This document shows positions 18,359 to 50,722 of a stretch of 64,000 nucleotides of DNA, in pieces. The translations under genes were made by a program, and so were the position numbers. The number at the start of each line of letters is the position of its first letter. The first letter of the stretch is position 1. The notes beneath the pieces are model-generated. The model saw nothing but the letters and a program-made list of their open reading frames with translations, was not told the DNA's origin and made no database searches. This DNA comes from Thalassobaculum sp. OXR-137. GTDB lineage: Bacteria > Pseudomonadota > Alphaproteobacteria > Thalassobaculales > Thalassobaculaceae. The DNA is taken from the NCBI RefSeq assembly GCF_034377285.1, contig NZ_CP139715.1, positions 4,572,001 through 4,636,000 of the forward strand, given 5' to 3'.

Positions 18359-18949
18359 CTACTCGGCCGAATGCGGGAGATCGGCCGGTGGCGGCGTCTC
18401 CAAGATCCGGTCGTCCAGCCGCTCACCGGTGAAGAAGCGGATCAGGTGGCCGATCGAATAGGCCAGCGTGAAGGCGCCGCAGAGGGTCAGCGGCACGGCC
18501 CGCAACCCTTCGGGCAGGTTGATCAGCGGGATCTCGGCGCTCCACTTGAACAAGACCAGCTTGTAGCTGTTGACCATCATGACCGCCCCGAACACCGCCA
18601 TGATCAGATAGGAGACCAGCTCCATCGCCAGCCGCACCGGGCGGGGCGCTATGTCCCGGAAGAACGACACGCCGAGATGGGAGCGCTCGTGCACCCCGGT
18701 CGAGGCGCCGAGGAAGCCGATCAGCGCCACCAGCAGCAGCGATACCTGCTCGACCCAGGTCGGGGTGGCGTTGAGCACATAGCGGCCGAAGACCAGCCAG
18801 CCGAAGATCACCGTCAGCGTGACCATGGCGGTGCCGGAGACCACGAGGCTGACCTGGCAGACGGCGTCCAGAAGCCGATAGAACGGTTGAAGCACGGGCC
18901 GGAGCGGACCTCCCCGGCCGGGCCTGTCGTCGGAAATCGGGGGATGCAT
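18359..18949 (-). CDS. dctQ: TRAP transporter small permease (DctQ family)
   Basis: About 196 residues with four hydrophobic helices, as expected for DctQ: LDAVCQVSLVVSGTAMVTLTVIF, the segment WVEQVSLLLVALIGFLGAS, a third around VRLAMELVSYLIMAVFGAV and a fourth near the C-terminus. The motif following helix 2 (STGVHERSHLGVSFF) is typical. The start is uncertain: ATG at 18949 is chosen, and an in-frame GTG at 18979 adds ten residues; neither has a clear ribosome site. It lies between dctP and dctM in the same operon. Confidence 0.88.
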   Translation of the reverse strand: MHPPISDDRPGRGGPLRPVLQPFYRLLDAVCQVSLVVSGTAMVTLTVIFGWLVFGRYVLNATPTWVEQVSLLLVALIGFLGASTGVHERSHLGVSFFRDIAPRPVRLAMELVSYLIMAVFGAVMMVNSYKLVLFKWSAEIPLINLPEGLRAVPLTLCGAFTLAYSIGHLIRFFTGERLDDRILETPPPADLPHSAE

Positions 18950-21162: not shown

Positions 21163-21196
21163 GGTTGTTCCCTCTGGAGGCGGACAGGTTTGGCGA

Positions 21197-35732: not shown

Positions 35733-37601
35733 TCAGAACGTCTTGTCGGTCTGCGGGCGATACTTGTTCTTCGGCGAGAAGCCGGACCGGTCGGCCGTCC
35801 TCGGCTCGCGCACCCAGACCTCGCGGTTCGGGTGCAGACCGCCGCCGCGGGTCGCCGGCACCGCCGTGTGGCGAGCACGGTGCAGCAGGCGGGTATCGGC
35901 GATGCCGCAGTTCGGATGGATGCCGCCATTATCGGCGACCTCCTTGTCCCATTTCGCCTGACGGGCATCCCGCGTCGCCTTGTCGTCCAGGGCGGTGCAG
36001 GACAGCTCGTTGGTGTTGAGGTCGGCGACGATCTCGTCCCCGTCCTCGATCAGCGCGATCGGACCGCCGAGTGCAGCTTCCGGCCCCACATGACCGATCA
36101 CCAGACCGACCGAGCCCCCCGAGAACCGCGCGTCGGTCATCAGGCCGACGGCGATGCCCCGCTCGCGGCACAGGGTGGTGATGCGCGAGGTCGGATCCAG
36201 CATCTCCGGCATGCCCGGCGCGCCGCTCGGCCCCTCGTAGCGCACGATGATCATGTCGTTGTTCTCAAAGGTCTCCGGCGTTTCGTCCAGGGCCTTGAGC
36301 AGCCCGGCCTCGCCCTCGAACACCCGAGCCTTGCCGACGAACCGGTTGTCCTCCAGCCCGACCTCGACGCCGGCGAGCTTCAGGATGGCGGAGAAGTCCG
36401 GCGACAGGTTGCCGCCCAGCACCCGCAGGCCGCCGGTCGGCTTGTACGGCTTCTCCACCGGATAGATGACCTTGCCGTCGACCTTCTTGGTCTCCAGCCG
36501 CTTGACCTGCTCGGCCAGGGTCTCGCCGGTGCAGGTCAGCACGTCGCCGTTCAGCAGGCCGGCCTCCAGCAGCTCGCGCACGATCACCTGCACGCCGCCG
36601 ACGGCGTCGATATCGACCATCGAATACTTGCCGTAGGGCCGGGCATCGGTGAGCACCGGCACCACGTGCTGGGACAGGTGGTTGAACTCCTCCGGCGTGA
36701 TGATCTCCTTCCAGAAATCGGCGTAGCCGGCCGCCCGCGCGATCTCCGGCGCGTGCAGGGTGACGTTGGTCGACCCGCCGATCGCCATGGCGACGATCAT
36801 CGCGTTGCGCAGGCTGTCGCGGACCACGATGTCGCGCGGCTTCAGGTCCTTCTCGATCATGCTGGCCAGGTGCTTGACCAGCACTTCCGGGAACTCGGTC
36901 AGGCGGCGCGGATCGTCCGACGGCGGCGCAACCATCTCCAGCGGCTGCAGGCCGACGACGCCGATGAAGGTCTGCATCGTGTTGTAGGTGAACATGCCGC
37001 CGCAGCTGCCGAAGCCCGGGCAGGCGTGGCAGGAGATGTGGTGGCGGAACTCGGCATCCGGATTGCCGGCGACCTGATAGGCGCTGACGATGTCCAGGGC
37101 CTCGCCGGTGTTCGGATCGTGGCCCGGGCGGATCGGCCCGTCGGACATGATGATGGCCGGCTGGTTATGCTCCAGGATCGCGGCGAGCGTCCCGACCGGC
37201 GGCTTGTCGCAGGCAACGACGGCGATGGTGCCGGCCAGGCCCGTGGCCTCCAGATGCTCGCACAGCGCGTCATGGGTGACTTCGCGGCCGATCAGCGAGT
37301 AGCGCATCTCCCGGGTGCCGTTGCGGATGCCGTCCGAGGTGGCGATCGTGTATTCCGGCTGCACGAGGCGCAGGCGCAGCTTGTCCGCCTCGGAGCCCAC
37401 ATGGCTCTTCAGGGTCTGGTGGATCGCCTCGACCTTGGCCTGGACGCCCAGATAGCACTGGCTGTCGCCCTTGGTACCGACCACGCCGACGGACGGCTCG
37501 TGGATCAGCTCCGGGTCGGTGCCGAGCTCGCGGGCGAGCCCGATGGTCTGGGCCGAGCGGCCCGGATGGCGGTCGATCAGGACGGTTCTTGAGTTTTTCA
37601 C
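35733..37601 (-). CDS. IlvD/Edd family dehydratase (dihydroxy-acid dehydratase-like)
   Basis: A 622-residue iron-sulfur dehydratase. Cluster-binding Cys are visible in GDSQCYLGV, VVACDKPPVG and CHACPGFGSCGGMF; the conserved AIGGSTNVTLH and TDARFSGGSVG segments are present. Family members dehydrate dihydroxy acids (valine/isoleucine synthesis) or sugar acids (phosphogluconate, xylonate, arabinonate). The CPGFGSCGGMFTYNTM motif favours the DHAD side, but the CDKPPVG loop deviates from the usual CDKxxPG. The start is GTG at 37601 with a GAGGGA site seven bases upstream. No biosynthetic neighbours help decide, so sugar-acid dehydration stays possible. Confidence 0.82.
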   Translation of the reverse strand: MKNSRTVLIDRHPGRSAQTIGLARELGTDPELIHEPSVGVVGTKGDSQCYLGVQAKVEAIHQTLKSHVGSEADKLRLRLVQPEYTIATSDGIRNGTREMRYSLIGREVTHDALCEHLEATGLAGTIAVVACDKPPVGTLAAILEHNQPAIIMSDGPIRPGHDPNTGEALDIVSAYQVAGNPDAEFRHHISCHACPGFGSCGGMFTYNTMQTFIGVVGLQPLEMVAPPSDDPRRLTEFPEVLVKHLASMIEKDLKPRDIVVRDSLRNAMIVAMAIGGSTNVTLHAPEIARAAGYADFWKEIITPEEFNHLSQHVVPVLTDARPYGKYSMVDIDAVGGVQVIVRELLEAGLLNGDVLTCTGETLAEQVKRLETKKVDGKVIYPVEKPYKPTGGLRVLGGNLSPDFSAILKLAGVEVGLEDNRFVGKARVFEGEAGLLKALDETPETFENNDMIIVRYEGPSGAPGMPEMLDPTSRITTLCRERGIAVGLMTDARFSGGSVGLVIGHVGPEAALGGPIALIEDGDEIVADLNTNELSCTALDDKATRDARQAKWDKEVADNGGIHPNCGIADTRLLHRARHTAVPATRGGGLHPNREVWVREPRTADRSGFSPKNKYRPQTDKTF

Positions 37602-37800
37602 AGGCGTTCCCTCTGGTCGGCACGAGACGGTCGGTTTTCCGGTTTGCCGCTCCCCTTGGGAAGCGGTCCCCGATCCGGCCCCGGATGCTAGTGCATGGCG
37701 CGGCATTCGGCCAAGGAGTGGAACCCCCGGGAGGCGTTGTCAATATGAGGAGGAGAAGCTAGCTGAATAATAAATTTTCCCTCGATCCTAGGGGCACCAA

Positions 37801-38226
37801 TTAGGCTGCTTCAACAGGACCCTCAGCTTCCTCACTCTTTGAACGATAATCAGCTATGCACGCAACTACACGATCCAATAAACTGTCGAATCCTGAAAAA
37901 TCGATTGTCTTCCAATTCGGTGATACAACATAATCTGCGAAATATGCCTTTCCGTATGTTGTATTCGGATCAGAATTGTTAGTTGAATCAAATGTTTTTC
38001 CAGACAGTTTTGTTCTTAAAACGCTATCTGGAAAAAGATCTTCTATAGATGTAAACTTATCTCCGTTTTCCGGAGTTTTCACTAAATATAGATTTTCATA
38101 CAAATTATAAAACATATCGGTAGTTTCAATGGAAATTTCCCTTTTTGAAATATTTTTTGCAACGCTAAACAGTCCACCCTTTGGGCCGTCATCATTATCA
38201 CAAACGATAATCACAGGCTTATTCAT
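37801..38226 (-). CDS. TOPRIM C-terminal part of retron RT-TOPRIM (separate frame)
   Basis: 141 residues starting at an ATG that overlaps the TAA of the previous frame (TAATG). The opening NKPVIIVCDNDDGPKGG is the DxD metal-binding half of a TOPRIM domain; its Glu motif (VTEGKTD) lies in the upstream frame. The reading frame is open upstream as far as an A5 run at 38246-38250, giving ...KKKFNFNLMNKP. One more A there would join the two frames into one protein, so this is most likely the displaced end of one RT-TOPRIM gene. Separate translation by coupling at TAATG is the alternative. Confidence 0.75.
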   Translation of the reverse strand: MNKPVIIVCDNDDGPKGGLFSVAKNISKREISIETTDMFYNLYENLYLVKTPENGDKFTSIEDLFPDSVLRTKLSGKTFDSTNNSDPNTTYGKAYFADYVVSPNWKTIDFSGFDSLLDRVVACIADYRSKSEEAEGPVEAA

Positions 38227-39341
38227 TAAATTAAAATTAAATTTCTTTTTATTGCTGGAAATTCTTGAATTAGCTTTTTCTGCCCAATAACCCCTACTCC
38301 CAACTCAAGCAAATCCTGATTTCTCATTGATGGGTTAAAAAAATCTACAGCGTATTCAATAATTCCATTGCTATTGGTTACTCCAAGTTCTCGATATTTC
38401 TCAGACCGCGCTCTGATTGCTTTCTTAAAATACAAAATATCTGTTTTTCCCTCCGTAACTATTATTGGCTTTTCCATTTTAACAAAATAAGAAAATAGAA
38501 GAAAATTTCGATACAGACCAACCATTTCCTTCGGCGGTACAAATTCACCTTTATCAATATAAATTTGATTGTGTTCATTTTTTCTATCTTTTCTCTGCTG
38601 AACATAATAAATATGCGACAGCCTTCCGCGCAGGACGTTACCAGCGGTAAACTCTTCTATTTTATTTTTTTCAAAATTAATAAAATACCTTCCAGTATTA
38701 AAATAATTATCACACATTGCACGCGTATATTTTAGAAAATCTCGGCGAACATTTGGCTTATCATTAACTGTCAAACCAGTAACAACCTGTCTCCTTTGTC
38801 TCTTCGACATCCTTACTTTAGCTTCATTAACCTTAAATCCTGACCTTTCTATTTCTGAATTTAATCGCTCTCCAACTCCCCAATCAGAAATAGAAATCTG
38901 AAATGCTATCTCGTTAGGAAAAACTTTTTCGTTACTCGAAAACGTAATGTCATCCACATACCTTGAATACTCAATGTTATTTTTTTTAGACAAATCCCTT
39001 AAACGAATATCAAGTATTCTGCCGATCATGTTAGAAATAATTGGAGAGCACGGACTACCCTGAGGTAAAGAATTTTTATAACACGCTATTTGTGCAACTA
39101 TAGTTGCGACATCCGGCTCAAGTCGAAAATAATGATCATTAATAAAATACCCCCTCACTCTACCAAAATTTATTGACCCAAAAAAATCTTCCAGATCAAT
39201 ATTAAATACAAATCTTTTCCTCGAGTGAACAGTTGAGTTTTTTATGATATTTTTTCCAGAAATATATCCGTAAGAATGTTCATCATAACGAGGATCCCCC
39301 TTCCGTATTTCCATAATACATTCGGATAAAATAGAATTCAA
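38226..39341 (-). CDS. Retron reverse transcriptase core with TOPRIM start (after in-frame stop)
   Basis: About 371 residues in the same frame as the RT N-terminal piece, separated from it by one TAA codon. RT features: NSTVH (the retron NAxxH position), FNIDLEDFF, SLPQGSPCSP, the catalytic YVDD at 38949-38960, and the retron VTG motif QVVTGLTVNDKPNVRR. After the thumb region a TOPRIM domain begins with KPIIVTEGKTDILYFKKAI. The apparent TTG start at 39341 directly follows the stop and is probably not a real start; an ATG at 39314 is another. All catalytic RT residues are intact. Confidence 0.85.
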   Translation of the reverse strand: MNSILSECIMEIRKGDPRYDEHSYGYISGKNIIKNSTVHSRKRFVFNIDLEDFFGSINFGRVRGYFINDHYFRLEPDVATIVAQIACYKNSLPQGSPCSPIISNMIGRILDIRLRDLSKKNNIEYSRYVDDITFSSNEKVFPNEIAFQISISDWGVGERLNSEIERSGFKVNEAKVRMSKRQRRQVVTGLTVNDKPNVRRDFLKYTRAMCDNYFNTGRYFINFEKNKIEEFTAGNVLRGRLSHIYYVQQRKDRKNEHNQIYIDKGEFVPPKEMVGLYRNFLLFSYFVKMEKPIIVTEGKTDILYFKKAIRARSEKYRELGVTNSNGIIEYAVDFFNPSMRNQDLLELGVGVIGQKKLIQEFPAIKRNLILI

Positions 39342-39344
39342 TTT

Positions 39345-39551
39345 TTATTGAATATTCTTAAGCCTGGAATTTGGCGAACTTATAATTCTAACTCCGCCAT
39401 TTTTCTTTGGAATTTCAATAGTACGGTACTTTTTTTCTTCAGGAATCTTATACAGCGCGTAGGACAACCCCTTCGGAGTAACTTGAAGTAGCGCAGCTAT
39501 ATCTTTAAGAGATTTGCTTTCATGCAGCAATTTTAGGTACGATTCTGTCAT
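39345..39551 (-). CDS. Retron reverse transcriptase N-terminal part, ends at in-frame TAA
   Basis: 68 residues that match the start of retron RTs: a short helical region (SLKDIAALLQVTPKGLSYALYKI), EKKYRTIEIPKKNGGVRIISSP and RLKNIQ, where the next residues in relatives continue into the RT core. Here a TAA (39345-39347) replaces one codon, and the same frame goes on with KLNSILSECI. A CAA-to-TAA or AAA-to-TAA change would explain it. The ATG lies 11 bases after the a2 arm of the msr-msd RNA. The fragment alone lacks all catalytic residues. Confidence 0.8.
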   Translation of the reverse strand: MTESYLKLLHESKSLKDIAALLQVTPKGLSYALYKIPEEKKYRTIEIPKKNGGVRIISSPNSRLKNIQ

Positions 39552-39562
39552 TTTCTATCAGA

Positions 39563-39703
39563 GCGCTTGCGGGTACTCTTTCGCGATGTGGTACGCATGG
39601 TATATATAAGATTACCAACGATTTTAATGGTCCTGACAAGCAGCGGGCCTACCGTTGTTGTCCTCTGCTGCGAAGCGCAGCATTTCAGTCTACCCGCAAG
39701 CGC
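39563..39703 (-). ncRNA. Retron msr-msd RNA with a1/a2 arms
   Basis: Arm a1 (39691-39703, GCGCTTGCGGGTA on the transcribed strand) and arm a2 (39563-39575, TACCCGCAAGCGC) are perfect 13-base complements. The base right after a1 is a G (39690), the expected branching guanosine. Next comes a 7-bp msr hairpin TGCTGCG-CTT-CGCAGCA (39666-39682). The rest, about 39576-39660, would be the msd template and holds short stems such as GACAA/TTGTC and GGTA/TACC. The order a1, msr, msd, a2, RT is the standard retron layout. Exact ends are not known. Confidence 0.8.
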
Positions 39704-39826
39704 CAAGGAATACCTCCCATACGTTGAGGTATATTTCAACCCACTCCCAACATAGTTTGGGAAACGCAGATCAAAAGCGTTATATGAAATGACTAACAAG
39801 GCGTCATTCCGATAGAAACCAGTGCC

Positions 39827-40477
39827 ATGTTCGACCTCACCCTTACCTTCGACAACGGCCCTGACCCGGAGGTCACGCCCCGGGTGCTCGACATCCTGCG
39901 GGCGCGGGGGCTGAAGGCCACCTTCTTCGTGGTCGGCAAGAAGCTGGAGCATCCGGACGGACCCGCCCTGGTCCGTGCCGCCCTGGCGGACGGACACCGG
40001 ATCGGCAACCACACCTATACCCACTCCATCCCGCTCGGCGAGAACCCGGCGCCGGATCTGGTCGAGACTGAGATCGCCCGGACCGACCGCGTTCTACGCG
40101 AGGCCGGAGCAAAAACCCGGCTGTTCCGGCCGTTCGGCGGCGGCGGCAATCTCGACGGGCGGCTGCTGCGGCGCGCGGTCGTCGACCACCTCACCGGCGA
40201 GGGCTATTCCTGCGTGCTGTGGAACGCCATCCCGCGGGACTGGGCCGACCCGGACGGCTGGGTGGAGACGGCACTGGCCCAGTGCAAGGCGCAGCCCTGG
40301 ACCCTGATCGTGCTGCACGACCTGCCCACCGGGGCCATGGACCGGCTGGAGGAGTTCCTGGACAAGGCCGCCGCACTCGGCGCCCGGTTCCGCCAGGATT
40401 TCCCCGATGCCTGCGTGCCGATCCGCGACGGGCGGATCGCGGCACCGGTCGAGCCGTATATGTCCGACGCGGCCTGA
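39827..40477 (+). CDS. Polysaccharide deacetylase family protein (NodB domain)
   Basis: A 216-residue carbohydrate esterase family 4 protein. The NodB motifs are present: LTFDNGPDPE (catalytic and metal Asp), IGNHTYTHS (metal HxxxH), and RPFGGGG in place of the usual RPPYG; the C-terminal LIVLHDLPTG gives the catalytic His. No signal peptide is seen, so it may act in the cytoplasm on a soluble N-acyl or formyl compound. The start lies at the edge of the AT-rich retron unit, whose control region occupies the upstream 120 bases. Transcribed divergently from the retron. Confidence 0.87.
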   Translation: MFDLTLTFDNGPDPEVTPRVLDILRARGLKATFFVVGKKLEHPDGPALVRAALADGHRIGNHTYTHSIPLGENPAPDLVETEIARTDRVLREAGAKTRLFRPFGGGGNLDGRLLRRAVVDHLTGEGYSCVLWNAIPRDWADPDGWVETALAQCKAQPWTLIVLHDLPTGAMDRLEEFLDKAAALGARFRQDFPDACVPIRDGRIAAPVEPYMSDAA

Positions 40478-40502
40478 TCGTGCCAAGCCCGGGCGGGCCG
40501 GA

Positions 40503-43162: not shown

Positions 43163-46100
43163 TCAGAAGAAGCCGAAATGGGTCTCCGTCAGGTCGGAGG
43201 TGTGGACGCCGATCAGACGGACGTAGTGGCCGCCCAGGTCGATCTCGACATCGCCGTCCGCATTGTCGCTGGCCCGGGCGATGACGTCGGCCGAACTGGT
43301 GATGGCCTGGCCGTTGACATTGGCCTGGATCATCAGCCGGTCGCCTTCCGAGACGTCGAAATCGGCGACCACGTCGAAGCCGTTGAGATCCTCGATATAG
43401 ATCCGGTCGGCCCCGGCACCGGTATAGATCCAGTCGATGCCCTCGCCGCCGTAGAACGCGTCGTCGCCGGCGCCGCCGTCCAGCACGTCGAACGATCCGT
43501 CGTTGGTCCCGTCCTCGCTGGAGCGGCCGCCAGACAGGGTGTCGTCCCCTGCACCGCCGACCAGCGTGTCGGCGCCGTCGCCGCCCGACAGGGCGTCGTT
43601 GCCGGCCCCGCCATACAGGGCGTCCTGACCCTTGTTGCCGTTGAGCACGTCGTTACCAACGTTGCCGTACAGCAGGTCCTGGTGCTGGCCGCCATACAGG
43701 GTATCTGAGTCCTGACCGCCAAAGAGCGTGTCGTAGCCCGCGTTGCCGTAGACCACGTCGGCCGCCTGGTTGCCGTAGACGACATCCTGGTCCTGACCGC
43801 CATAGACCGTGTCCTCCTCGGTGCCGCCGAACACCCGGTCGTTGTCCTGGTTGCCGTAGAGGACGTCCTTGCCGCTGCCGGACCCGATGGTGTCGGCCCC
43901 TGCCCCCCCGAACAGGGTGTCGTCGCCGACGCCGAGCGAGATGAACTGGCTGCTCTCGTCGCCGGTGACATAGTTGTCCCCGGCGCCGCCGGTGACCGTC
44001 GTCGAGCCCAGGACCGAGGCGAACTCGATATTGTCAAGCTGCAGGGTGGAGCCCGTCGGCATCGAGCGCATGTCGATGACGAAAGCCTCGGACTGCGGCG
44101 ACCCGTCGGTCGGCTCGCTGCCGGCGATGACGATCGGCTCCGAGGTCGAGCCGGAAGTCGTGGTCGGGACGATCGTGCGCACGTCCAGGGACGTGTTGGT
44201 GCTCAGGTTGTTGAGGAAAGCCCGGGCACCGGTCGTCAATTGCGGGGTCGAGGGCGACCCGCGGCCCTCCACCGCCTGGACCAAGGTGTCCACGGCGTTG
44301 GCGCCGGACTGGGCGGTCGACGGACCTTCGGAGGTGAGGCTGGTCCCGGCCGGCAGGGTGGCGGTGACCACATTGCCGTTGTTGTTCGTGTTCTGCACGA
44401 TCGGCGCCGAGCCTGGCGTGCTTCCATTGTTGGTGATGGTCTCCGCGGTGGTCGTCCCGGACCCGCCGGTGCCAGTGGTGGGGGTCGTCGGAGTGACGAC
44501 GACATTGGGGGTACCGCCGCCTCCCGACGACCCGCCACCACCGCTCCCCCCGGAGCTGCCGCCCCCGGAGCCGCCGTCGGAGGGCGGGGCGACCAGGGTG
44601 ATCGTGGTCGTGCCAGCGGCGTAGACCGCCCCAAACGTGCCGCTGGCACCGGTGATGCCGCTCAGCGCGATATCGCCGCTTCCGGTCGCGATAGTGCCGG
44701 ACGCGGTCGTTCCGTTCAGAGCCGACAGATCGGTTCCGATGACCCTGATGCTGTCGCCCACCGAGAAGTCGGCGATCGTGTCGCCATCCATGTCGCCGGC
44801 GGTTCCCCGGAAGGTATCGGCGCCGGCGCCGCCGTAGAGCAGGTCGGCTCCCGCTTCCCCGATCAACTGATCCGCGCCGTCGCCGCCGGACAGGGTGTCG
44901 CTCCCGGCCCCGCCGCTCAGAACATCTGCGTCGGCACCGCCGTAGAGCTTGTCGTTGCCGGTCTCCCCGTAAAGACTGTCGTTGCCGGCGCCGCCATGGA
45001 CCGCATCATCGTCAAAGTCACCGACGAGGAAGTCGTCGCCCGCACCGCCGGACAGGGTGTCGGCACCGGCACTGCCGGATAGGGTGTCGGCGCCGTCGCC
45101 GCCGAACAGAAGGTCATCGCCGGCCTGGGCCGTCATGAGATCGTTGCCGTCGCCGCCGGACAGGGTGTCGTTCCCGATGGCCCCATACAAGGAATCGTTA
45201 CCGACACCGCCATACAGCGCGTCGTTGCCGTTGCTTCCCGCAGCGTAATCATCGCCCGCACCGCCGGAGATCGTGCTGCCGAGTCCGCCGCCGGTCAGGG
45301 TGTCGCCGGCCTGGCCGCCGGTGATCGAGAAGGACCCGTCCTGTTCGGCCGAGCCGAACCACTTGACCGCATCCGTGCTGCCGGACGCATCCACCGTCAG
45401 GGTCTTGCCACTGGCGACCGTGGCGTCGTGGGTGGTGATGTCCTGAGCACCGCCGGTGATCTTGACCGTCTCGACATTGGTCAGGCTGGTGGCATTGAAC
45501 GTCACCGTCTGCGCCACCGCAAGGGTCAGCACGTCGGTTCCGTCGCCGCCGTTGATCGTGTCGCCGGCGTTCAGCACATTGGACGCATCGGCGGTGATCG
45601 TGTCGTTGCCGGCCCCCAGGGTCGGATTGTCGGTGCTGATCGTCAGGGTGAAGGTCACCGGCGGTGGCACCAGGGTGATGGTCGTGTTGCCGGTACCGCT
45701 GTCGTAGACCGCGCTGAACGTGCCGCTGGCGGCGGAGATGCCGGCAAGCGTCAGCGTCCCCTCATCCATCGCGATGGTCGACGCCGCATCCTCTCCGTCG
45801 AGAGACGACAGGTCCAAGCCGGTGACGACGATGCGGTCGCCCGTGGAAAAGTCCCCGATCGTGTCGCCGTTCAAGTCGCTCGCCGAGCCGGTGAACACAT
45901 CGTTCCCGGCACCGCCGACGAAGGAATCGTCGCCGTCACCGCCGGCCAGGGTGTCGGCGCCGGCGCTGCCGTAAAGCGTGTCGGCCCCGGCGTCGCCGAA
46001 CAGCCTGTCATTGCCGTCGCCGCCGACCAGCGTGTCGGCGCCGGCGCCACCGGACAGGGTATCGGCCCCGGCGCCGCCGGACAGGAGGTCTCCGCCGTCG

Positions 46101-49100
46101 CCACCGAGCAGGATGTCATCCCCGTCGCCGCCGTACAAAGAGTCGGCTCCGGTACCGCCGACGATGGAATCGACTCCGCCGCCGCCGTACAGCGTGTCGG
46201 CGCCGTCACCGCCCGACAGGGTGTCAGCCCCGGCGCCGGCGGTCACCACGTCCGCCCCGTCGCCGCCGGTGATGGCGAAGGTACCGTCGGTCTCCGCGCT
46301 GCCGTTCCAACTGATCCAGTCCGAGCTGTCCGAGGCGTCCACCGTCAGGGTCTTGCCGGTGGCGACCGTGCCGTCGTCGGTGGTGATGGTCTGGTTCCCG
46401 CCGGTGACCTTGACCGTCTCGACATTGCTCAGGGTGCCTTGGAACCCCAAGGTCTGTCCCACGGAGAGGATCAGCACGTCGTTGCCGTCTCCGCCGTAGA
46501 TCCGGTCCAGGGAGTTCAGCACACCGGAGGCGTCCGCGAGGATCGTGTCGTCCCCGGCTGTCAGGCTCGGGGTGTCGAAGCCGGTGGTCAGGGTGAAGGA
46601 CACCGGCGGCGGCAGCAGGGTGATGGTCGTGTTGCCGCTGCCGCTGTCGTAAACCGCCTTGAACGTGCCGCTGGCGGCGGAGAGCCCAGTCAGGGTCGCG
46701 GTCTTCCCGGTGCCGACCTGCACGGTCTCCGACGCCGCGGTGCCGTCGAGGGACGACAGGTCCGTGCCGGTCACCAGGAGCACGTCGTTGGTGGTGAAGT
46801 CCTTGATCTGATCGCCGTTAAGCTCGTCGAGGGTGCCGGCGAAGGTGTCGGCGCCTTCGCCGCCGGACAGGATATCGACGCTGCCGGCCCCACCGATGAG
46901 GAGGTCGTCGCCGTCTTCGGCAAAGAGCTGATCGATGCCGTCGCCGCCCGAGAACGTGTCGTTGCCGGCACCCCCGTACATCTGGTCGTTGCCCGCACCG
47001 CCTGAGATCAGGTCGTTGCCGGCATCGCCGCCGAAGACGTCGTTGCCCGCCCCGCCCACAAGGGTGTCGTTGCCGGCATTGCCGAAGACTCTGTCATCGC
47101 CGTCGCCGCCGGCCACGTAGTCGTCGCCGTCGCCTCCCGCGACCGTATCGGCACCGGCGCCGCCGAGAACGGTATCGGCCCCGTCGCCGCCGTAGGCCTC
47201 GTCGTTGCCTGCGCCGCCCGACAGCGTGTCGGAACCCGCTGCAGCGGACAGCGTGTCGTTGCCGTCGCCGCCGACCGCGATGTCGTCACCGGCGCCGCCT
47301 GCGATGGCGTCGTCACCGGCGCCGCCCGACAGGGTGTCGGCTCCATCACCGCCGCTGAACGTGTCGTTTCCGGACCCGCCTTTCATCCAGAAGGTGCCGT
47401 CCGCCTCGGCTTTGCCGTCGATAAAGACGGCGGTAGAGCCGGAGGCGTCGACCGTCAGGGTCTGGCCGGACGCGACGGTGCCGTCGGCCAGGGTGAGGGT
47501 CGCGGTGCCGCCGGTGATCCGGATCGTCTCGACATTCGTCAGGGTGGTGCCAGAGAACGTCGCGGACTGATCCTGCGAGATCAGCAGCGTGTCGTTGCCG
47601 GCACCGCCGTCGATCCGATCCGAGGGATTCACCACGTTGGCGCCGTCGGCCACGATCGTGTCGGCACCGTCCGTCAGGGTCGGGGTGTCGTTCTCCGTCG
47701 TCAGCGTTGCGGAGACCGGGCTGTCGACCAGCGAGACGGACGAGGTGTTCGTGCCGGTATCATAGGCCACGCTGAAGGTCAGCGCGTTCGTCAGCCCCGT
47801 CAGGGTCAGGGTTCCGTCGCCGATAGCGATGCTGTCGGACGCCACCTGGCCGTTCAGCGACGACAGGTCCGCGCCGGTCACGACCAGCCTGTCCGACTTG
47901 CCGAAATCGGCGATGGTGTCGCCGTTGAAGTCTTCCGCGCTACCCGAGAAGGTGTCGTCGCCGGCCCCGCCAGCGAGAAGATCTTCGCCGGCACCGCCGT
48001 CCATGCTGTCGCTGGCGGCCCCGCCGGACAGGGTGTCGTCACCCGATCCGCCGGAAAGGATGTCGTTGAGGGCGCCACCCTTCAGACTGTCGTCGCCGGC
48101 GCCGCCGACAAGACTGTCAGTGCCGAGACTGCCGGACAGGGTGTCGGCGCCGGCCCCGCCCGACAGGGTATCGGCGCCGCCGCTTCCCGTGACGTTCTGG
48201 TCGCCGTCGGAGCCGGTGACCATGAAGCCGTCCAGCCCCAAATCGACTGCGGTCAGCGTCTTGCCGGCCGCCTGGGCCGCCGTCAGGGTCACCGTCTGGG
48301 CGGTGGAACCGCTGCTGGTCGCCAGCGTCTCGATCTCGCTCAGATCCGCCGAAGAGATGTCGCCCGTGGTCGTCAGCGTGATGGTATTGGTGCCGGTCCC
48401 GGTGATCGTGCCGGTGAACTGGACGAGCTGGGCCGCGGTCATGGTGACCCTCGCGCCCATGGTCAGGGTCATGGTCTCGACCCCGTCGATCGACGCCCCG
48501 GCGATGTTGGTGCCGTCACCGAGTTGCAGCGTATCGGTCCCGGCCCCGCCGCTAAGGGTGCCGGTGGCGGTAAAGCCGGCGATACTGACCGTGTCGTCGC
48601 CGCTGCTGCCGGTGACGCTCTGTCCGGCCGCGCCCAGGGTGAAGTTGTAGGTGTCGGTCAGAACGAAGGATTCCACGGCCGCCGCACCGGTGACGCTGTC
48701 GTCGCCGTCGGACGCCGCGAGCGTGATGGTCTCGCTGCCCGCGCCTGCGATGGTGGAGAACCCCTCGTACTGGGTCTCCGTCATCGTGGCGGAGCCGCCG
48801 GTCGTCAGTGTCAGGGCTTCGAAGCCGTTCAGGGCAGCGACCTTGGTGAAGTCGCTGCCGTCCGCGGCCACGATCGTGTCGGTGCCGGCGCCGCCGCTAA
48901 GTGTCGATCCGTCCAGATGCGCCGCATCGGCGATGGTCAGCTTGTCATTGGTCGCCCCAAGGGCGGAGGACGGGGTCAGGTTGGTGCCGTCGGTGGTGTT
49001 GAAGCCGGCCGCGTTCGAGGTGACCTCCACGGACCCCGATTTCAGGGTGATGTCCGTGACGTAGGAGAACATCGCCTGGTCGTAGCCATTGACGCTATCG

Positions 49101-50722
49101 ATCACCAGGTTGCTCTTGCTGAGTTCGATGGTGACCTCGACGCTTGAGAAATCGGTATCGTCGGTGTCGATCTCCAGTGTCGTCCCGGTGACTCTGACGT
49201 TGGCCGAGGTCAACATGGAGCCATCGAGCCTGATCGTATCGGCCCCATCGAGATCCAGATCCAGGATCGTATCGCCGTCGAGTTCGGGGGAGCTGCCGGT
49301 GAACAGATCGTTCCCGGTGCCGCCGGCGAGCGTGTCTGCGTCAGCGCCGCCCTGAAGCGTGTCATTGCCGGCGCCACCGGAAAGCACGTCGCTCCCGGCA
49401 TGCCCCATCAGGGAGTCGTTGCCGGCATTACCCCACAGGGAGTCGTCGCCGGCATTGCCCCACAGGGCGTCATTGTCGGCACCGCCGCTCAGGCTGTCAC
49501 TATCCGCGCCACCGCTGAGGGTGTCGTCGCCGGTACTGCCGTTCAGAGTGTCTTCGCCACTACCGCCACGGAGCATGTCACGGTCGGCACCGCCGCTCAG
49601 GACGTCATTGCCGTCGCCGCCGCTCAGGGTGTCATTGCCGGCAGCGCCGCGCAGCAGGTCGGCATCGGCACCGCCGGCAAGCAGGTCGTCGCCGTTGCCC
49701 CCAAACAGGGAATCTGTGTCGGCACCGCCGCTCAGGGTGTCCGCGCCGCCGCCGCCGCTCAAGATGTCGGCGCCGTTGCCTCCGAACACCCGGTCGGCGC
49801 CGTCCTGGCTGGAATAGCCGTCGCCAAGCAGCGTATCGGCACCCTCGCCGCCATAGATCGTATCGGCGCCAGCATAGCCCCGGGCGAGGTCGTCGCCCAG
49901 GCCGCCGGACAGAACATCGTCACCGTCTTGCCCGGCCAAGTTGTCCGCGCCGTCGCCGCCGACCAGGGTATCGTTGTCATCGCCACCGTCCAGGGTGTCA
50001 TTGCCGTCGCCACCGCTCGCGAGGTCGTTGCCGTCCTGACCGAAAATGTGGTCGTTGCCCTCGCCGCCGTTCAGGCTGTCATTGCCGCCATACCCGTAAA
50101 TCACGTCGGCGGTAGACGTTCCGGTTATCAGATCGTCGCCGGCCGTCCCCGCGGTCGAGACGAGCACCGCCGGGAAGGCCGCCCGGGCGGCCGGCGAGAA
50201 GACCGGCGCCACCCACGCGCCGTCGAGGCGCGACAGGTCCCAGGATCCGCCCAGCTCGACCGTGCCCACCGGGCCGGCGGCGGCGGCGACCGGCGTGCCC
50301 AGCGCGGTCTCCAGCGCGGAGACGAAGCGCCGCCCTTGCTCCCCTTGCGCAACGGAACAGCCGTAGACGACGACGTCGGAGGCCTCCGACAGGGAGGCGG
50401 CGATCTCCGACAGCGCATCGGCGGCGGCGTCCAGGGCGGCCGCGTCGATCCTTTCACCGGCGAGTCGCAGCGCGCCGGGCTCGCCATGGCTCAGGATGTG
50501 GAGGGACGAGACGCTGCGCCGTCCGGCCAGATGGCGGGCGATCTGGCCCAGCCCGTCGCCGGCCGATGTCAGGCGCAGGATCCGGGTGCCGGGCGCCACA
50601 CCCGCTTCCAGGACATGCGATGCCGGCACGTCGCTGTCTACGACCAGCAGCCGATGCCGGGCGGCGGACTGAGCGCGGATGGAGGGGCTTGTGACGGGCC
50701 ACGGGCGACGGATCACGGACAT
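43163..50722 (-). CDS. Giant DUF4347-RTX calcium-binding secreted protein
   Basis: A 2519-residue protein. Residues ~22-190 form a DUF4347 domain with LHILSHG (His79) and YGCSVAQG (Cys122). From ~195 on there are dozens of RTX nonapeptides (GGxGxDxL) in several blocks. Between them are beta-rich modules of about 310-370 residues that repeat in tandem (DxIxDFxxxDxLxVTG, then a PPPV or similar linker, then LTNVETVKITGG and TLTVDASGS); three copies and part of a fourth are seen. A Gly/Ser/Thr-rich linker precedes the last RTX block, and the protein ends in HFGFF. It is probably exported by a type I system, not encoded here, and acts as an adhesin or surface layer protein. Confidence 0.9.
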   Translation of the reverse strand: MSVIRRPWPVTSPSIRAQSAARHRLLVVDSDVPASHVLEAGVAPGTRILRLTSAGDGLGQIARHLAGRRSVSSLHILSHGEPGALRLAGERIDAAALDAAADALSEIAASLSEASDVVVYGCSVAQGEQGRRFVSALETALGTPVAAAAGPVGTVELGGSWDLSRLDGAWVAPVFSPAARAAFPAVLVSTAGTAGDDLITGTSTADVIYGYGGNDSLNGGEGNDHIFGQDGNDLASGGDGNDTLDGGDDNDTLVGGDGADNLAGQDGDDVLSGGLGDDLARGYAGADTIYGGEGADTLLGDGYSSQDGADRVFGGNGADILSGGGGADTLSGGADTDSLFGGNGDDLLAGGADADLLRGAAGNDTLSGGDGNDVLSGGADRDMLRGGSGEDTLNGSTGDDTLSGGADSDSLSGGADNDALWGNAGDDSLWGNAGNDSLMGHAGSDVLSGGAGNDTLQGGADADTLAGGTGNDLFTGSSPELDGDTILDLDLDGADTIRLDGSMLTSANVRVTGTTLEIDTDDTDFSSVEVTIELSKSNLVIDSVNGYDQAMFSYVTDITLKSGSVEVTSNAAGFNTTDGTNLTPSSALGATNDKLTIADAAHLDGSTLSGGAGTDTIVAADGSDFTKVAALNGFEALTLTTGGSATMTETQYEGFSTIAGAGSETITLAASDGDDSVTGAAAVESFVLTDTYNFTLGAAGQSVTGSSGDDTVSIAGFTATGTLSGGAGTDTLQLGDGTNIAGASIDGVETMTLTMGARVTMTAAQLVQFTGTITGTGTNTITLTTTGDISSADLSEIETLATSSGSTAQTVTLTAAQAAGKTLTAVDLGLDGFMVTGSDGDQNVTGSGGADTLSGGAGADTLSGSLGTDSLVGGAGDDSLKGGALNDILSGGSGDDTLSGGAASDSMDGGAGEDLLAGGAGDDTFSGSAEDFNGDTIADFGKSDRLVVTGADLSSLNGQVASDSIAIGDGTLTLTGLTNALTFSVAYDTGTNTSSVSLVDSPVSATLTTENDTPTLTDGADTIVADGANVVNPSDRIDGGAGNDTLLISQDQSATFSGTTLTNVETIRITGGTATLTLADGTVASGQTLTVDASGSTAVFIDGKAEADGTFWMKGGSGNDTFSGGDGADTLSGGAGDDAIAGGAGDDIAVGGDGNDTLSAAAGSDTLSGGAGNDEAYGGDGADTVLGGAGADTVAGGDGDDYVAGGDGDDRVFGNAGNDTLVGGAGNDVFGGDAGNDLISGGAGNDQMYGGAGNDTFSGGDGIDQLFAEDGDDLLIGGAGSVDILSGGEGADTFAGTLDELNGDQIKDFTTNDVLLVTGTDLSSLDGTAASETVQVGTGKTATLTGLSAASGTFKAVYDSGSGNTTITLLPPPVSFTLTTGFDTPSLTAGDDTILADASGVLNSLDRIYGGDGNDVLILSVGQTLGFQGTLSNVETVKVTGGNQTITTDDGTVATGKTLTVDASDSSDWISWNGSAETDGTFAITGGDGADVVTAGAGADTLSGGDGADTLYGGGGVDSIVGGTGADSLYGGDGDDILLGGDGGDLLSGGAGADTLSGGAGADTLVGGDGNDRLFGDAGADTLYGSAGADTLAGGDGDDSFVGGAGNDVFTGSASDLNGDTIGDFSTGDRIVVTGLDLSSLDGEDAASTIAMDEGTLTLAGISAASGTFSAVYDSGTGNTTITLVPPPVTFTLTISTDNPTLGAGNDTITADASNVLNAGDTINGGDGTDVLTLAVAQTVTFNATSLTNVETVKITGGAQDITTHDATVASGKTLTVDASGSTDAVKWFGSAEQDGSFSITGGQAGDTLTGGGLGSTISGGAGDDYAAGSNGNDALYGGVGNDSLYGAIGNDTLSGGDGNDLMTAQAGDDLLFGGDGADTLSGSAGADTLSGGAGDDFLVGDFDDDAVHGGAGNDSLYGETGNDKLYGGADADVLSGGAGSDTLSGGDGADQLIGEAGADLLYGGAGADTFRGTAGDMDGDTIADFSVGDSIRVIGTDLSALNGTTASGTIATGSGDIALSGITGASGTFGAVYAAGTTTITLVAPPSDGGSGGGSSGGSGGGGSSGGGGTPNVVVTPTTPTTGTGGSGTTTAETITNNGSTPGSAPIVQNTNNNGNVVTATLPAGTSLTSEGPSTAQSGANAVDTLVQAVEGRGSPSTPQLTTGARAFLNNLSTNTSLDVRTIVPTTTSGSTSEPIVIAGSEPTDGSPQSEAFVIDMRSMPTGSTLQLDNIEFASVLGSTTVTGGAGDNYVTGDESSQFISLGVGDDTLFGGAGADTIGSGSGKDVLYGNQDNDRVFGGTEEDTVYGGQDQDVVYGNQAADVVYGNAGYDTLFGGQDSDTLYGGQHQDLLYGNVGNDVLNGNKGQDALYGGAGNDALSGGDGADTLVGGAGDDTLSGGRSSEDGTNDGSFDVLDGGAGDDAFYGGEGIDWIYTGAGADRIYIEDLNGFDVVADFDVSEGDRLMIQANVNGQAITSSADVIARASDNADGDVEIDLGGHYVRLIGVHTSDLTETHFGFF

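Follow-up and report, generated by a model that had tools for sequence, protein, structure and literature searches.

A retron of the Ec67/Eco2 kind with a twice-broken RT-TOPRIM gene on an apparently acquired insert in Thalassobaculum sp. OXR-137

The locus at 37801-39703 on the reverse strand of a 64,000-nt stretch of the Thalassobaculum sp. OXR-137 genome (contig NZ_CP139715.1, positions 4,572,001 to 4,636,000; hereafter the window) belongs to the retrons of the Ec67/Eco2 kind and comprises an msr-msd RNA and a reverse transcriptase (RT) plus TOPRIM coding sequence. The retron was probably gained horizontally, and its protein gene was probably inactivated later, by a nonsense codon that interrupts the fingers of the RT and by a change of frame within TOPRIM. 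An initial annotation of this DNA had described a retron with recognisable msr-msd RNA and RT-TOPRIM coding sequence. The RNA and the domains are confirmed, and the RNA gene appears to have stayed intact, whereas the coding sequence is broken twice and a working retron is doubtful. The mention of a "joined protein" in that annotation hinted at separate frames, but left unstated that the gene is interrupted, by a TAA after codon 68 and by a frame change in TOPRIM. The features of the locus are collected in Table 1.

The locus is a degenerate example within a well-described, structurally solved family. Although RT-TOPRIM fusions had been regarded in the initial annotation as less studied, Retron-Eco2 already has cryo-EM structures (PDB 9i2f, 9i2g, 9s1f and 9lm3) and a published effector mechanism, in which an autoinhibited msDNA-protein trimer releases a TOPRIM RNase (PMC12405507). 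Moreover, the same report names Toprim as the effector most often fused to the retron RTs in its analysis (PMC12405507). By itself, the window retron adds little, being one more broken copy of a known family. A survey of the literature on broken, alphaproteobacterial or Toprim retrons, retron classification and covariance models, largely restricted to papers available without subscription, found no mention of the locus.

Table 1. Features of the retron locus (window coordinates).
Feature	Position	Strand	Remarks
Whole insert, low GC	37751..39824	.	About 2.07 kb, flanked by ilvD and a polysaccharide deacetylase gene
msr-msd noncoding RNA, from a1 to a2	39563..39703	-	Covariance model R1 match at 39701-39565
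a1 arm	39691..39703	-	GCGCTTGCGGGTA; 13 bp, perfect complement of a2
Predicted branch G	39690	-	Directly after a1; equivalent of Eco2 rG15
msr hairpin	39666..39682	-	7 bp, arms 39682-39676 / 39672-39666, loop CTT
Predicted msd template	39577..39653	-	77 nt; Eco2 boundaries transferred by alignment
a2 arm	39563..39575	-	TACCCGCAAGCGC; preceded by conserved GAG
RT N-terminal piece	39348..39551	-	68 codons; ATG at 39551, ended by TAA 39347-39345
RT body and first TOPRIM motif	38226..39341	-	371 aa; NSTVH, LPQGSPCSP, YVDD, VTG, VTEGKTD; Eco2 residues 75-439; terminates at TAA 38228-38226
Zone open in both frames	38226..38304	-	-1 frame change, TAA overlapping ATG
Second TOPRIM piece	37801..38226	-	141 aa; CDNDDG, TSIED, YGK; Eco2 residues 453-575

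The RNA elements claimed for the locus from the sequence alone, perfect 13-bp a1/a2 arms, a G right after a1 and a 7-bp msr hairpin, are all present. The arms are separated by 115 nt. In 1000 dinucleotide shuffles of the 300-nt region preceding the gene, no perfect inverted repeat of at least 13 bp arose at a loop length of 90-130 nt, the longest being 11 bp. The 161-nt window RNA folds at -56.2 kcal/mol, whereas 200 shuffled versions average -42.3 and none of them is as low (z -3.6). A promoter scan of 37600-39900 returned 12 sigma-70-like sites versus 5.9 expected, none of them on the reverse strand upstream of a1. Just upstream of this arm, at 39710-39732, lies an inverted repeat (ATACCTC-9 nt-GAGGTAT) that might be an operator of the retron promoter.

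Conservation of this RNA was examined in the best 80 of at least 568 confirmed candidates among genome contigs, together with nine plasmid loci taken from 148 plasmid records with a match. A usable 5' end is found in 85 of these 89 loci; the profile match extends to the end of TOPRIM in 61 of them and falls short of it in 24. A lack of a1/a2 arms in close relatives had been named beforehand as a result that would speak against a retron, and it is not what the relatives show. According to a fixed rule (an arm of at least 9 bp, a1 ending in A and GAG before a2), the arms are carried by 52 of the 61 TOPRIM-type relatives, and by 3 of the other 24 loci (L017, L059 and L062, in all of which the gene extends to the edge of the contig). 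In 54 of the 55 relatives that follow the rule, a1 is followed by a G.

The sequences of these 55 relatives, with the window left out, were used to build the covariance model R1. Among the nine TOPRIM-type loci failing the arm rule (L030, L031, L037, L046, L061, L069, L071, L075 and L083), R1 recovers the RNA in six, while the three still without a match (L061, L075 and L083) belong to the outer clade of the RT tree. A covariance-model search, which had been proposed as a check on the RNA, gives with R1 a window match of 72.1 bits (E 2.1e-15). This is the only match in the 64 kb at E <= 10 and the only one in the whole genome at E <= 0.001. As a positive control, R1 detects the authentic Retron-Eco2 RNA in E. 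coli S10 with 77.7 bits, and a model of Ec67-type RNA that recovers Eco2 is possibly a useful side product. The search that recovered the six RNAs extended over 22 sources, with seven matches among 12 TOPRIM-type or 5'-cut loci; on 10 of the 21 remaining loci with other RTs the single match scores 11.7 bits (E 0.95). Rfam returned no retron family over 37000-40500 at E <= 1. In a genome of the same class (L117, 3086-3139), a short R1 match of 26 bits (E 8e-5) lies 182 nt upstream of a 739-codon RT frame on the same strand, and is perhaps a shortened relative of the RNA.

The structure is also supported by covariation in a 56-row alignment (A2), in which standard pairs fill 98.7% of the cells of the a1/a2 plus msr structure. 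Changes on both sides occur in 16 of its 18 pairs, a count that 88 of 500 shuffles reach, and its covariation score is reached by none of the 500. For the arms alone, 10 of 11 pairs have changed on both sides, a figure that is partly circular because the arms were used for choosing the rows. The msr hairpin, which played no part in this selection, is paired in 97.2% of the cells and shows changes on both sides in six of its seven pairs. Its covariation score is 0.824, versus 0.288 in shuffles (0 of 500 as high) and at most 0.269 when slid. RNAalifold, unprompted, proposes the same two helices, plus a small two-pair helix beside a2.

The comparison of the protein with retron RT families, also proposed earlier, places all three pieces of the gene in one family. 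Each of them has RT-Toprim_I-C as its best PADLOC match (E 2e-130, 1.3e-37 and 2.6e-21), the label type I-C being taken from the PADLOC model names, and NF038237 (retron Ec67 family) as its best NCBIfam match. Against the latter, the score of the RT body by itself is 439 bits, slightly short of the cut-off of 450 set for the whole protein. The closest solved structures by sequence are chains of the Retron Ec67 protein (PDB 9i2f and 9lm3). RT-TIR (XII) and RT-protease (XI) retrons have related fused RTs, but with a different effector, and the RT body scores only 275 and 274 bits against them, versus 434.

In a quick RT tree, whose support consists of SH-aLRT values without bootstrap, the window RT falls into a four-row clade (SH-aLRT 97) with L114, a Gemmobacter locus (L013) and a Parvibaculaceae bin (L016). 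L114, from a genome of the same class (G367), is the nearest intact relative and the nearest by tree path. Its identity to the window protein is 48% in the RT body (359 aa aligned), 51% in the N-terminal piece (65 aa) and 48% in the TOPRIM piece (132 aa), and R1 scores its RNA at 87 bits. Contrary to the window gene, which is in three pieces, L114 is a single open frame of 596 codons. Among phage records, 37 have a match and one of these covers at least 80% of the RT body; one scan of viral contigs with a single protein found no relative.

All the RT and TOPRIM motifs listed in the initial annotation are present; CDNDDG, however, is in a different frame from NSTVH, LPQGSPCSP, YVDD, VTG and VTEGKTD. 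The N-terminal piece aligns with Eco2 residues 5-69 and with positions 6-71 of PADLOC RT-Toprim_I-C, the first stop sitting just after the residue that matches Eco2 Q69. The second break, the -1 frame change, interrupts the TOPRIM domain and separates its two catalytic motifs. The residues of TOPRIM catalysis (E/G, DxD, second-metal and lysine) are kept across the two frames, where EGKTD, DND, TSIED and YGK line up with the corresponding motifs of Eco2 (PMC12405507). The locus is a member of the family by descent, but falls short of a working member in that a single RT-Toprim fusion protein is absent from the window, its place being taken by three pieces in two frames.

It is unlikely that the living strain carries an intact retron and that errors of assembly account for one of the breaks or for both. 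In favour of such errors, the two breaks are located in A+T-rich sequence, and the comparison covered a single genome of the species. Nevertheless, the assembly consists of three contigs and is 99.97% complete, and two errors inside one 1.75-kb gene would be unusual. In addition, 10 mechanically chosen window frames of at least 150 aa were compared with the sister genome G003, to which they align whole or in part at 80% identity or more, and seven of them show no frame-breaking indel. The indels of the other three are located at 18922 (near the end of the frame), at 37650-37660 (ahead of the probable start of ilvD) and in a gapped cluster at 21168-21189.

Less probable still is a split system that continues to work, with translation restarting after each break, or shifting by -1 at A_AAT_TTA, and with the pieces assembling. 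Candidates for a restart exist, a TTG two codons past the first stop and an ATG overlapping the second stop (TAATG). The second frame has the -1 register, a heptamer in the correct register (38244-38238) is present in the overlap, and the catalytic motifs are kept in the pieces. However, 11 heptamers in the -1 register occur in 372 codons, from which about 0.8 would be expected in the 26-codon overlap where one is seen, and programmed -1 frameshifting was rejected because the heptamer, although present, occurs at a chance rate. Besides, the gene is a complete single frame in 56 of 64 relatives, and not one of the remaining eight has breaks at both window places. The first break parts the residues aligned to Eco2 F46, R56 and K66 (fingers) from the palm. 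A narrower version, a three-piece protein obtained by restart or frameshift that allows the toxic TOPRIM half to be made at a low, adjustable rate, is slightly less credible again. A sequencing error and a working split protein are both less likely than an acquired, inactivated retron. Finally, a chance inverted repeat beside a non-retron RT, conceivable in A+T-rich DNA with its many hairpins, is refuted by the R1 match and the covariation, and is also opposed by the retron-family protein matches and the shuffles.

Under the preferred reading of an acquired retron with an inactivated protein gene, the breaks look recent, since 372 codons are still open, the catalytic motifs are kept and only 4 of 62 near-invariant columns have changed. 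The 372-codon run, in a gene of 34% GC, compares with a maximum of 176 in 1000 shuffles. The four departures refer to columns conserved at 95%; 1 of 56 comparison rows departs there in at least as large a proportion. At 90%, the window departs at 5 of 84 columns, and 10 of the 56 rows are as high; these rows include L057, in more than one frame, and L020, without its 5' part. Because few near-invariant columns differ, decay of the protein is slight, which speaks against the preferred reading. The end branch of the window in the RT tree is long (0.92 versus 0.24-0.33 in its clade), which fits relaxed selection or plain divergence.

The retron seems to have been acquired by horizontal transfer, given the empty site in sister genomes, its sole carrier in the family and the step in GC. 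Homology to the sister genome G003 stops at 37750 and restarts at 39825, and GC falls from about 0.68 in the flanks to about 0.33 in the insert. The flanking genes, whose products are a dihydroxy-acid dehydratase (ilvD) and a polysaccharide deacetylase, lie side by side in three of the five other genomes of the genus that were compared, with about 120-170 bp between them and without the insert; the remaining two gave no match to either flank. RT-Toprim was found at E <= 1e-50 in 1 of 36 genomes of the family, that of the window itself, and among 385 sampled genomes of the class five others have a relative at E <= 1e-40. At the insert ends, neither a mobility gene nor a target-site duplication was recognised. 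Elsewhere in the window (43163-50722), a 2519-aa protein is encoded with DUF4347 and 36 matched stretches of RTX calcium-binding repeats.

What the intact ancestor may have done can be proposed from Retron-Eco2. In the latter, the branch nucleotide is rG15, followed by a 23-nt stem-loop (rG20-rU42) and the ssRb region (rG43-rU51), and the last nucleotide of the 67-nt msd DNA pairs with rG52 (PMC12405507). Both retrons share the domain order, the RT and TOPRIM catalytic motifs and an RNA layout of arms, branch G, one 7-bp msr hairpin and GAG before a2, and R1 scores both RNAs. They differ in the two breaks of the window gene and in the predicted msd length (77 nt versus 67 nt in Eco2). With Eco2 positions located on the E. 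coli S10 sequence, the boundaries were transferred as rG52 after AAU and dT1 opposite the A of GA/G before a2. The window msd DNA would thereby have its 5' T opposite 39577 and its 3' end opposite 39653, ends that are probably accurate to a few nt. The predicted 77-nt msd DNA (z 0.65) and that of Eco2 (z 0.05) fold no better than shuffles. The Eco2 motif YADD is YVDD in the window, as in 8 of 56 comparison rows. The conserved aromatic F46 of Eco2 aligns with an I in the window, and likewise in the relative L010; in Eco2, F46A weakens msDNA synthesis and defence (PMC12405507).

By analogy with Eco2, the RT of the intact ancestor would have started synthesis at the 2'-OH of the G next to a1 and copied about 77 nt of the msd. 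The resulting msDNA would have kept the RT-Toprim protein in an inactive complex, until phage damage to the msDNA released the TOPRIM RNase and phage production stopped. In the present genome, the cascade probably halts at its first step, as the RNA could still be transcribed while no complete RT would be made. An RVT_1 search of the genome (E <= 0.001) finds only the window RT, with its TAA, and no other RT-family match, for which reason rescue in trans by a second RT was rejected. Because the RT gene is broken and the genome has no other match of this family, msDNA is probably no longer made.

Interrupted genes also occur among the 64 relatives that reach the TOPRIM end (three of them from the outer clade), six being in more than one frame (L003, L005, L016, L047, L053 and L057) and two without the 5' part (L013 and L020). 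These 8 of 64 give a rough, possibly useful frequency of broken or shortened Ec67-type retrons, in which some metagenome bins, contig ends and possible sequencing errors are included. A split site common to the broken relatives was considered and dropped: L003 (by a stop), L053 (by a -1 change) and the window break between the TOPRIM motifs, the breaks of L005, L016, L047 and L057 lie at other places, and no signal is common to the overlaps compared. The retron on a Caballeronia sp. SBC1 plasmid (L003, 1285-3038) has two breaks, an RT frame change and a TOPRIM stop, with the RNA arms intact. In that of a Staphylococcus carnosus plasmid (L005, 1279-3049; annotated as Ec67 family), the frame ends soon after the DNE motif and an overlapping frame carries the remaining TOPRIM. 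In Gemmobacter nectariphilus (L013, 1-420), neither the RNA nor the RT N-terminus was found, and unrelated sequence adjoins the RT body near the contig end. In Bulleidia extructa (L057, 3700-3900) the RNA is present, and the RT N-terminus and the remainder are in different frames.
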